The translations under genes and the position numbers were made by a program. Below are positions 23,045 through 53,584 of a stretch of DNA of 64,000 bases, piece by piece; position 1 is the stretch's first letter; each line of letters starts with the position of its first letter. The notes beneath the pieces are model-generated. The model had not been told where the DNA came from and made no database searches. It worked only from the letters and a program-made list of their open reading frames with translations. The DNA lies in the NCBI GenBank assembly GCA_019455285.1, contig JACFMS010000003.1:10909-74908 (forward strand). The letters run 5' to 3'. This DNA comes from Sphingomonadales bacterium (GTDB lineage: Bacteria; Pseudomonadota; Alphaproteobacteria; Sphingomonadales; Govanellaceae).

Positions 23045-23091
23045 TTGACTTGAGGCACGGTTTGCGCTTATGGTATATTGGTAAGACCAAT
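23045..23091 (+). promoter_or_regulatory. fuc operon promoter with GntR operator ATTGGT-AAG-ACCAAT
   Basis: A -35 TTGACT (23045-23050) and a -10 TATGGT (23069-23074) with an 18-base spacer are followed directly by ATTGGTAAGACCAAT (23077-23091). That palindrome has 6-bp arms around AAG and would cover the transcription start. The TGGT-N3-ACCA core is the site type of FadR-subfamily GntR regulators, and five more copies lie in this island. Confidence 0.75.
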
Positions 23092-23128
23092 TAAATAGCT
23101 ATGCCGCATCAAGACGAAGAGGGAGGCC

Positions 23129-23572
23129 ATGCTGAAAGGTATCGACCCGCTCCTTGGCCCTGATCTTTTGCATCTCATTGCCGCCATGGGCCATGGCGAT
23201 GAACTGGTCATCGCCGACGCCAATTTTCCCGCCACCAGCGTGGCCCGGCGGCTGGTGCGTTGCGACGGCGTAAACGTCACGCAGGCATTGGCGGCGATTT
23301 TGACGCTCTATCCCCTCGACCAGTATGTGCCCAAGCCGGCGATGGTGATGGCGGTGGTGGGCGATCCATCGGCGACGCCGGATACCTACGCCGACTTTTC
23401 CCGCGCCATCGCCTCGGCGGAAGGCAAACCGGTTGACCTGGAGCGCATCGAACGCTTCGCCTTTTATGAGCGCGCCCGCCAGGCGTACGGCGTAGTGGCG
23501 ACCTCCGATACCCGGCTTTATGGCAATATCATCATCGCCAAAGGCGTCGTCGCGCCCAGCCTAAATAAGTAA
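23129..23572 (+). CDS. fucU: L-fucose mutarotase-type protein (RbsD/FucU family)
   Basis: 147 residues, the normal size for FucU. Diagnostic segments are LLGPDLLHLIAAMGHGDELV (catalytic-pocket His in MGHGD), IADANFPATS and the C-terminal YGNIIIAKGV with the conserved Tyr. FucU interconverts alpha and beta L-fucose, giving the anomer needed by the next enzyme. It is the first gene of a plus-strand operon with fuconate dehydratase 13 bases downstream, which fits fucose. Activity on L-rhamnose or other 6-deoxy sugars cannot be excluded. Confidence 0.9.
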   Translation: MLKGIDPLLGPDLLHLIAAMGHGDELVIADANFPATSVARRLVRCDGVNVTQALAAILTLYPLDQYVPKPAMVMAVVGDPSATPDTYADFSRAIASAEGKPVDLERIERFAFYERARQAYGVVATSDTRLYGNIIIAKGVVAPSLNK

Positions 23573-23585
23573 AAGGACATCTCTC

Positions 23586-24905
23586 GTGAGCGTGACGATT
23601 ACCGATCTGGTGGTTCAGGATATTCGCTTTCCTACTTCCCGCACCCTTGCCGGCTCGGACGCCATCAATCCCGATCCGGATTATTCGGCCGCCTATGTGA
23701 TCCTGACAACCGATTCCCCGGCGGGACTTGCGGGACACGGCCTGACGTTTACCATTGGCCGCGGCAACGAAGTGTGCGTCGCCGCCGTCAACGCCATCAA
23801 GCCTTTTGTCGTGGGCCAAACCTTGGACGCCATCAAAGGCGATATGGCCGGCTTCTGGCATCGCATCGCCGGCGATAGCCAACTGCGCTGGATCGGGCCG
23901 GAAAAAGGCGCCATTCATCTGGCGACCGCGGCGGTCATCAACGCGGTGTGGGATTTGCTCGCCAAGGCGGTGGGAAAACCGGTGTGGAAACTCCTTGCCG
24001 ACATGTCGCCGGAAGAGATCGTCGCCTGCATCGACTTTACCCACATCACCGATGCGCTCAGCCATGCGGAGGCGCTGGCGCTGCTGAAGGACAAGGCGGA
24101 AACAAAAGCCGAGCGGGAAGCAAACCTGATCCGCAACGGATATCCCGCCTATACCACAGGCGCGGGCTGGCTTGGCTACTCGGATGATAAAATGCGCACG
24201 CTATGCCGGCAAGCGCTGGCCAGCGGCTGGCGAGACTTCAAGCTGAAGGTCGGCGCCAACATCGACGATGACGTGCGCCGCATCGCCATCATGCGCGAAG
24301 AGATTGGCCCCGAGCGCCGATTGATGGTTGACGCCAACCAAGCCTGGGAAGTTACCGACGCAATACGCCATATGGCGCGCCTTGCCCCCTATAAACCATG
24401 GTGGATCGAAGAGCCGACCAATCCCGACGATATCCTGGGCCATGCGCGTATCCGCGACGCCGTGCGGCCGATCGGCGTCGCCACCGGCGAGCATTGCCAC
24501 AACCGCGTGATGTTCAAGCAGTTCTTCCAGGCCAAGGCGATTGACTTTTGCCAACTCGACTGCTGCCGGCTGGGTGGCGTCAATGAAATTCTCGCCGTCC
24601 TCCTGATGGCGGCCAAATTCGGCGTGCCGGTTTGCCCCCATGGCGGCGGCGTCGGTTTGTGCGAATATATCCAGCATATCGCCATGTTCGATTACATTGC
24701 CGTCAGCGGCAGCATGGAGAATCGGGTGTTGGAATACGTCGATCACCTGCAGGAGCATTTCATTGATCCGGTACGGGTGCGCGACGGGCGCTATCTGGCG
24801 CCCCAAGCGCCGGGGTTCAGCATCGAGATGAAGCCGCGCTCTGTAGCCGATCACCGCTTCCCTGATGGCGCGGCATGGCGGCAACTTTCCGAGGCGCTGA
24901 CATGA
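23586..24905 (+). CDS. fucD: L-fuconate dehydratase (enolase superfamily)
   Basis: 439 residues, GTG start (AAGGA 9 bases upstream). The sequence follows the fuconate dehydratase type closely: [53 protein letters not shown]. Enolase-superfamily catalysts are visible as the KxK Lys pair in DFKLKVGAN, metal ligands in [15 protein letters not shown] and GEHCHNR, and the general-acid His in CPHGGGVGL. It dehydrates L-fuconate to 2-keto-3-deoxy-L-fuconate. The stop overlaps the next ATG by four bases. Together with FucU and the following SDR and AKR, it defines the non-phosphorylative L-fucose route described in Xanthomonas. Confidence 0.93.
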
Positions 24906-52980: not shown

Positions 52981-52991
52981 GGGTATGGGCG

Positions 52992-53486
52992 CTACTCTTT
53001 GGGAAGCCAATCGATATCGTCAAACCCACGCTCCAGATAACCGCCATGCTCCACCGATGAGCCTTCATAACCGATGACGCGCCACACTTCGGGATCGCGG
53101 TAAATGCTGGTCAGCAGGTGCTGATAGGCGGCGGCGAAAAAGGCGCTGCTTTCGATGCGCTTAATGTCGGCCAGTTGTTGCTGTTCGCTGGCCGCCGTCC
53201 AGTCACCGGGCGACGCTTGCTGTAACGAACGGACGCCATCCTCGATCGTGGCGGAAAGTGGAGCGGATTTTTCGGCGTGCGCCAGAAGCGCCGCGGCGGC
53301 CGCCAGATAGGCGCGGTCGGAAACGGCGCGGTGGGGAAACAAGCGCCGCGCCAGGATCGACAGCAGACGCGCGCGATCAGGCGGGGACTCCGCCGCCCAG
53401 AGATGCTTGGCCGCCAGCGCCAGCCCGACCAGCCACGGCAGGCCCAGGAGCACGCGCCGACGCGCCATATCCATGTCAGGGACCAT
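52992..53486 (-). CDS. Gluconate 2-dehydrogenase subunit 3 family protein
   Basis: 164 residues from ATG 53486. This start follows GGGAAGG and leaves a leader of about 60 bases after the predicted promoter, whereas the GTG at 53537 would begin only a dozen bases after it. N-terminal MARRRVLLGLPWLVGLALAA is a Tat/Sec-type signal with an Arg cluster. The rest is helical with FFAAAYQHLLTSIYRDPEVW and a C-terminal YEGSSVEHGGYLERGFDDIDW that fits this family. The protein chaperones and exports the GMC flavoprotein encoded next. Confidence 0.85.
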   Translation of the reverse strand: MVPDMDMARRRVLLGLPWLVGLALAAKHLWAAESPPDRARLLSILARRLFPHRAVSDRAYLAAAAALLAHAEKSAPLSATIEDGVRSLQQASPGDWTAASEQQQLADIKRIESSAFFAAAYQHLLTSIYRDPEVWRVIGYEGSSVEHGGYLERGFDDIDWLPKE

Positions 53487-53555
53487 CTTGGAACCAAGCC
53501 TTCCCGCCTCACTGCCCGGGAAGATTGGTGATTCCACCGGCCGAGGTCAAGGCTT

Positions 53556-53584
53556 ATTTAAAATTGGTCATGCCAATTTTTCAA
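53556..53584 (-). promoter_or_regulatory. Promoter with embedded GntR operator before GMC pair
   Basis: On the minus strand TTGAAA (53584-53579) and TTAAAT (53561-53556) are separated by exactly 17 bases, and that spacer is the palindrome AATTGGCATGACCAATT. The core is GGCATGACC, one base off the TGGT-N3-ACCA pattern in the left half, with outer 7-bp arms AAATTGG / CCAATTT. Same layout as the symporter promoter. Confidence 0.7.

Follow-up and report, generated by a model that had tools for sequence, protein, structure and literature searches.

Six copies of a short palindrome in a 30-kb island of the DNA analysed here (a stretch of 64,000 nucleotides from a Sphingomonadales bacterium, hereafter the window) are predicted to be the operators of one local regulon, repressed by a GntR protein encoded in the island and serving the use of L-fucose- and L-rhamnose-containing glycans. 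We put the probability of this reading at about 0.85. The island had earlier been described as a sugar-acid island; a single operator set was indeed found across its units, and its predicted enzymes make "L-fucose/L-rhamnose regulon" a more fitting description than a general one in terms of sugar acids.

Palindromes and promoter candidates

The palindromes were located within a base or two of the positions given in an earlier note on this DNA. All six were extragenic and each lay upstream of one transcription unit, in agreement with the promoter positions claimed there. With boundaries deduced from gene order and strand, the six units of the island were the fucU operon (23129-28401), TonB receptor 1, the minus-strand gntR operon (46471 down to 30970), TonB receptor 2 with an esterase, the GPH symporter and the GMC pair (Table 1). 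The full form of the operator was WTTGGTMNKACCAAW, with a core of TGGT-N3-ACCA. Five sites had the exact core and the GMC site read TGGT-CAT-GCCA, so the earlier description of six TGGT-N3-ACCA operators held for five and has to allow one mismatch in the sixth. The listed open reading frame of TonB receptor 2 started at a TTG (49893) upstream of operator 4; its true start is likely the ATG near 49788, which has a GGAGG ribosome site, and operator 4 would then be noncoding. The aldo-keto reductase domain began at residue 100 of its listed frame, and the true start of this gene is probably downstream of the listed one.

The 17-bp spacer of TTGAAA-17-TTAAAT contained the whole GMC operator, and the spacer from TTGAAA to TATTAT/TATAAC contained the GPH operator, as expected from the earlier claim that a site fills the -35/-10 spacer in at least two cases. 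At operator 2, TTGACA was followed by 17 nt and then by the right half-site. When promoters were assigned as consensus matches, every unit had its operator over one of the three highest-scoring candidates, and in four units the candidate overlapped was the top-scoring one; the top-scoring candidates of gntR and TonB receptor 2 were free of overlap. The predicted overlap favours repression by blocking of the polymerase. Some FadR-type proteins activate some promoters, and in the promoters of fucU and the TonB receptors the operator overlapped the -10 element, not the spacer, as might suit an activator or dual regulator whose ligand-bound form switches the island on. We consider this quite unlikely, since in the better promoter candidates the operators lay over the -35/-10 elements or the spacer, a geometry typical of repression. 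Under the preferred reading of GntR as a repressor, the position of operator 3 before gntR most likely reflects autoregulation. A putative second gntR operator, weaker than the others, was 14 bp from operator 3, centre to centre.

Table 1. Predicted operators and genes of the island, in order of position in the window.
Feature	Position	Strand	Sequence, support or remark
Operator 1	23077..23091		ATTGGTAAGACCAAT; precedes fucU operon; overlaps best -10 candidate TATATT (23074-23079); kept in sibling genome
fucU, L-fucose mutarotase	23129..23572	+	PF05025; NF011949, 134 bits, just under cut-off of 141
L-fuconate dehydratase	23586..24905	+	Solved L-fuconate dehydratase 1yey, E 1e-173
SDR, probable 2-keto-3-deoxy-L-fuconate 4-dehydrogenase	24875..25642	+	PF13561; closest solved chains 2ag5, 8y11
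Aldo-keto reductase, probable L-fucose 1-dehydrogenase	25398..26666	+	Closest solved relatives L-galactose dehydrogenases, E 1e-37
PhyH-family dioxygenase	26691..27497	+	PF05721
Alpha/beta hydrolase (DLH type)	27457..28401	+	PF01738
Operator 2	28463..28477		ACTGGTCATACCAAT; precedes TonB receptor 1
TonB-dependent receptor 1	28553..30904	+	PF00593, PF07715
Two RidA/YjgF-family genes	30970-31431, 31447-32019	-	PF01042, PF14588; end of gntR operon
FMN-dependent L-lactate dehydrogenase-like (LldD-like)	32016..33170	-	PF01070, 456 bits; NF008398, 327 bits, below cut-off
SDR, Gfo/Idh oxidoreductase, galactarate/altronate dehydratase-like	33204..36606	-	
Alpha-L-fucosidase-like glycosidase	36628-38751	-	
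Alpha-L-rhamnosidase	38748-41327	-	
Probable 2,4-diketo-3-deoxy-L-rhamnonate hydrolase	41328..42179	-	Solved relative 8gsr, E 1e-92
SDR, probable 2-keto-3-deoxy-L-rhamnonate 4-dehydrogenase	42195..43010	-	PF13561; 50% identical in G654 rhamnonate operon
L-Rhamnonate dehydratase	42944..44149	-	NF011968, 497 bits against cut-off of 393; 3fxg, E 7e-157
SDR (probable L-rhamnose dehydrogenase) and xylose-isomerase-like protein	44137..45731	-	
GntR regulator, FadR type	45755..46471	-	GntR winged helix-turn-helix and FCD domain
Operator 3	46561..46575		AATGGTAAGACCAAT; precedes gntR and rhamnose operon; kept in sibling genome
Putative second gntR operator	46574..46590		ATTTGGTCTTTCCAAGT; imperfect palindrome abutting operator 3; identical in sibling genome
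Esterase and TonB-dependent receptor 2	46618..49788	-	
Operator 4	49864..49878		ATTGGTAATACCAAT; precedes TonB receptor 2 and esterase
Operator 5	49952..49966		ATTGGTCTGACCATT; between -35 and -10 of GPH symporter
GPH/MFS_2 sugar symporter	50055..51419	+	PF13347
GMC dehydrogenase and small Tat-signal partner	51424..53537	-	PF05199, PF00732; RRR Tat-like signal in 52992-53537
Operator 6	53563..53577		ATTGGTCATGCCAAT; inside 17-bp spacer of GMC promoter; kept in sibling genome

Restriction to the island and conservation in the sibling genome

Pattern and model searches of the genome (3.3 Mb) found WTTGGTMNKACCAAW within one mismatch in eight places; six were the island operators (P about 2e-10) and the remaining two were inside long open reading frames. 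The pattern TTGGTNNNACCAA, also within one mismatch, matched 42 places, which equalled the reversed control count, and seven of these were in the island's 30.5 kb (Poisson P about 2e-7). Outside the island, motif matches were at or below the reversed-pattern control. When twelve outside candidates were inspected individually, eleven were inside long open reading frames and the twelfth (C12:97143) had a central CCA, unlike the M-N-K centre of the island sites. Three exact TTGGT-N3-ACCAA cores were found outside the island, all with centres that did not fit M-N-K. The motif was thus not equally frequent elsewhere in the genome, a possibility raised in the earlier note, and near-perfect sites were concentrated in the island. 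A degenerate copy of the motif lay over the start codon of an SDR-like gene at 8126-8136 of the window, with a better counterpart in the sibling genome (C6:110681, ATCGGTCATACCAAT); it is possibly a weak additional target or a chance match.

The sibling genome (G003), from the same genus, had the same sequence as record QEVO01, isolate PRO5. It was collinear with the window at about 94% identity and all six operators were kept, operator 2, which is imperfect in the window, having the perfect counterpart ATTGGTCATACCAAT. The two genomes differed at 2 of 90 site positions and at 59 of 691 other intergenic positions (P 0.02). GntR was not found at E 1e-40 in G001 and G002, two members of the family, and these two genomes were also without good sites, so that good sites tracked the presence of GntR.

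The bare core is not rare, with 21 one-mismatch matches in the window against 13.4 expected, and an eight-base core this common could give six chance palindromes in AT-rich promoters. This was ruled out by the genome-wide clustering in the island, the conservation in the sibling genome and the blind recovery of the palindrome around GntR relatives (see below), which leave chance a negligible probability.

Two stretches of the sibling genome departed from the window. The window-like synteny stopped within tRNA-Leu (window 53624-53712; L038 8400-15245), of which the 60-nt 3' part alone persisted beside the GMC operon, followed by phage-like genes that by eye encoded tail-fibre-like, M15-peptidase-like and large virion-like proteins. 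These genes look like a prophage that integrated at the tRNA 3' end and is missing from the window genome. Integration of the island at tRNA-Leu was rejected as the cause of this boundary, because the sibling showed phage-like genes there and not the island's own edge. At window 36492-36633 the sibling had approximately 1.2 kb more, containing a dipeptidase-like gene that separated the dehydratase-like from the fucosidase-like gene of the gntR operon; this extra gene was absent from the window genome.

The GntR regulator and its relatives

The regulator had the N-terminal winged helix-turn-helix (PF00392, 71.6 bits against a cut-off of 27) and the C-terminal FCD domain (PF07729, 102.9 bits against 24.3) that define the FadR subfamily, and the island sites were palindromic TKGT-N3-ACMA operators in target promoters, as expected of this subfamily. 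The expected FCD metal ligands (D154, H158, H202 and H224) were conserved across 19 aligned proteins. The NanR family was the best match among named NCBIfam regulators, none of which scored above cut-off. Identity as NanR itself was rejected, as NF003011 gave 164 bits against a cut-off of 260 and the island sites were palindromes, not direct repeats of TGGTATA.

The earlier note was correct that this is the only FadR-type regulator in the window; however, this is a weak argument for linking it to the sites, since the genome holds 11 FCD-type GntR proteins. A twelfth GntR domain belonged to a 459-aa MocR-like protein. With 11 FCD proteins encoded and TGGT-N3-ACCA generic among FadR-type proteins, the sites might be operators of another regulator of the genome (an FCD GntR or a PdhR/LldR-like protein), the neighbouring GntR having other targets. 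However, LPPERELA, the DNA-binding signature of the FadR group, was found in the island GntR alone among the 11 proteins. In an alignment only this protein had the form LPPERELA...VSRPSLREAL; in the other ten the DNA-binding region was VanR-like or differed in some other way and lacked both LPPER and the motif arginine, and the closest of these proteins was 29% identical. Suvorova et al. 2015 (PMC4494728) describe TKGT/ACMA boxes with 3 nt separating GT from AC as typical of the FadR subfamily and link the G of TKGT to helix position 28, usually Arg; the motif arginine of the island GntR was equated with this position by eye from the alignment. The restriction of the sites to the island, their tracking of GntR within the family and their recurrence beside GntR relatives in other families likewise speak against a different regulator, which we judge very unlikely. 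For another GntR of the genome in particular, the DNA-binding regions of the other FCD proteins and the MocR-like nature of the lone remaining protein made it an unlikely binder. The predicted link between the island GntR and the operators is supported by its unique signature among the 11 FCD regulators and by the palindrome found beside its relatives.

A contig search with GntR returned the sibling only, and strict searches at order and class level returned few relatives; a family-level search around G649 was therefore used. Family f29 contributed relatives at 40-49% identity from G649 and a further 14 genera, and others came from G654 and G1070. A comparison of sites across relatives, as the earlier note had proposed, located the same palindrome, strict or weaker, near gntR clusters in 16 other alphaproteobacterial genomes. 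Stretches around fifteen relatives contained 13 motif matches in 173 kb, compared with 0.2 from shuffles (maximum 3), and 10 of the 13 lay where gntR operons begin or between divergently oriented units. Short loci around the relatives' gntR mostly had no site and longer stretches revealed sites, because the site is usually several kb upstream, at the operon head. Loci without the strict pattern had degenerate versions in the promoter region (e.g., AAGTGGCCTGACCACTT).

When 17 loci from outside the genus were searched blindly for palindromes with arms of 5 or 6 bases and spacers of 0-10, the top result with 5-base arms was ATTGG-N5-CCAAT (10 loci against 0.09 expected) and that with 6-base arms was AATTGG-N5-CCAATT (8 loci against 0.004 expected). 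Other high scorers may be shared coding sequence. A matrix made from the relatives' sites only (R1) was then run on four genomes. In this genome it matched the six operators and nothing else, each on both strands (12 matches, E up to 10); the same six operators were found in the sibling, none in G001 and one weak place in G002, with 150 of 528 first-look candidates scored, so that weak sites elsewhere could escape. The putative second gntR operator was not picked up by this matrix. Most training sites of R1 had been found with the window motif and the matrix is not fully independent of it, whereas the blind search is.

In G654, GntR was opposite an operon with a rhamnonate dehydratase (62%), an SDR (50%) and a hydrolase (58%), and two tandem sites 22 bp apart lay between gntR and this facing operon. 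Rhamnonate dehydratase (62-66%) was near GntR in G654, G820 and G1070. In other relatives GntR was near a fuconate dehydratase (62%) or a fucose-type SDR (61.5%; the homologue of the 24875-25642 SDR, in L106), together with a hydrolase (59-61%). These neighbourhoods support both the fucose and the rhamnose halves of the predicted regulon. A xylose-isomerase-like gene accompanied GntR in many relatives, and in family f29 (L106, L107, L108, L111-L113 and L115) a conserved operon that included gntR also encoded an acetoacetate-decarboxylase-family protein, an ABC sugar transporter and a 2-hydroxyacid dehydrogenase.

Predicted pathway and comparison with known systems

The L-fuconate dehydratase matched 1yey over nearly its full length, as expected of an oxidative L-fucose pathway, and the L-rhamnonate dehydratase fitted an oxidative L-rhamnose pathway in the same way. 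The L-fucose and L-rhamnose dehydrogenases were assigned by position and class, and several enzymes scored under curated cut-offs. For the hydrolase of the gntR operon, the best solved relative (8gsr) was 2,4-diketo-3-deoxy-L-rhamnonate hydrolase itself (NF053535, 410 bits against a cut-off of 500); it was the only close copy in the genome, the next best being 38% identical, and no hydrolase of this type was found among the genes of the fucose operon. From sugar stereochemistry, the keto-deoxy acids of L-fucose and L-rhamnose differ in configuration at C4 only. Because C4 becomes a ketone, both branches should end in the same 2,4-diketo-3,6-dideoxy acid, so that the two can share one hydrolase and one lactate enzyme. 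With the hydrolase encoded in the gntR operon only, the fucose operon would depend on co-regulation with that operon. The glycosidase at 36628-38751 combined a fucosidase-like N-terminal part with a beta-galactosidase trimerisation domain, and its best solved match was alpha-L-fucosidase 6tvk, a weak one (E 2e-9).

In the model that we infer from the observed sites, their uniqueness and conservation, the association with the GntR clade and the enzyme families, GntR dimers would occupy ATTGGT-N3-ACCAAT over the -35/-10 region and shut off all six units, among them the gntR operon; GntR most likely acts as an autoregulated repressor that the substrate induces. In FCD proteins the metal-binding FCD domain commonly serves to bind acids. 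The conserved metal ligands fit an acidic pathway intermediate as the inducer, which would bind this domain and release the repressor; the most economical guess is the diketo acid common to both branches or the keto-deoxy acids that precede it. The two TonB receptors, the esterase and the two glycosidases would deliver sugars from L-fucose/L-rhamnose glycans and the GPH symporter would import them. L-Fucose would be oxidised by the fucose operon (fucU, dehydrogenase, fuconate dehydratase and SDR) and L-rhamnose by the rhamnose operon (dehydrogenase, rhamnonate dehydratase and SDR). The hydrolase of the gntR operon would cleave the shared diketo acid to pyruvate and L-lactate, and the LldD-like enzyme would oxidise the lactate.

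More tentatively, and at slightly less than even odds, the regulator may belong to an undescribed FadR-type clade, spread across several alphaproteobacterial families, that regulates the oxidative breakdown of 6-deoxyhexoses and senses the one intermediate common to the fucose and rhamnose branches. If this is true, one repressor serves two sugars and here also governs outer-membrane uptake. The analysis offers a complete predicted regulon from an uncultured lineage, with one operator per island unit and no comparable site found elsewhere in the genome, and it assigns a target set to a GntR clade that spans several alphaproteobacterial families. A shared hydrolase in a co-regulated rhamnose operon may, in addition, explain a fucose operon without the last enzyme. 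The sibling PRO5 came from an anammox reactor, and the natural role of the regulon may be in side populations that use fucose- and rhamnose-containing extracellular polymers there.

A diketo L-rhamnose pathway of Sphingomonas was reportedly described by Watanabe and Makino in 2009 (cited in PMC3870299). The diketo route comprises a rhamnonate dehydratase, a 4-dehydrogenase and a diketo hydrolase. The island has the same predicted set, but unlike that pathway it adds an L-fucose branch without a hydrolase, all under one operator type. Like the members of the FadR subfamily (PdhR, LldR, ExuR, DgoR and GlcC; PMC4494728), the island GntR combines a GntR winged helix with an FCD domain and has a TKGT-N3-ACMA operator with A/T flanks linked to sugar-acid metabolism; unlike the island regulon, neither rhamnose nor fucose is mentioned in the main text of that survey (Suvorova et al. 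2015, PMC4494728). The rhamnose regulons of Rodionova et al. 2013 (PMC3870299) also unite L-rhamnose catabolism with glycosidases and transporters. However, their regulators include LacI- and DeoR-family proteins, with GntR absent from the text, and the island differs in using the oxidative diketo route. A literature search found no GntR regulon described for rhamnonate catabolism or for fucose and rhamnose catabolism together. The sections of Leyn et al. 2017 (PMC5507952) considered here give predicted FucR sites at oxidative L-fucose loci, as in the island, for L-fucose/L-fuconate loci of Halomonas and Rhodobacteraceae, where unexplained rhamnose-like loci are also noted; part of the GntR clade may therefore already be named, through FucR. 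Unlike the island, these sections describe no joint fucose-rhamnose regulon with TonB receptors. The kind of system, a local regulon of FadR type, is well known, and as a predicted regulon this one is new.
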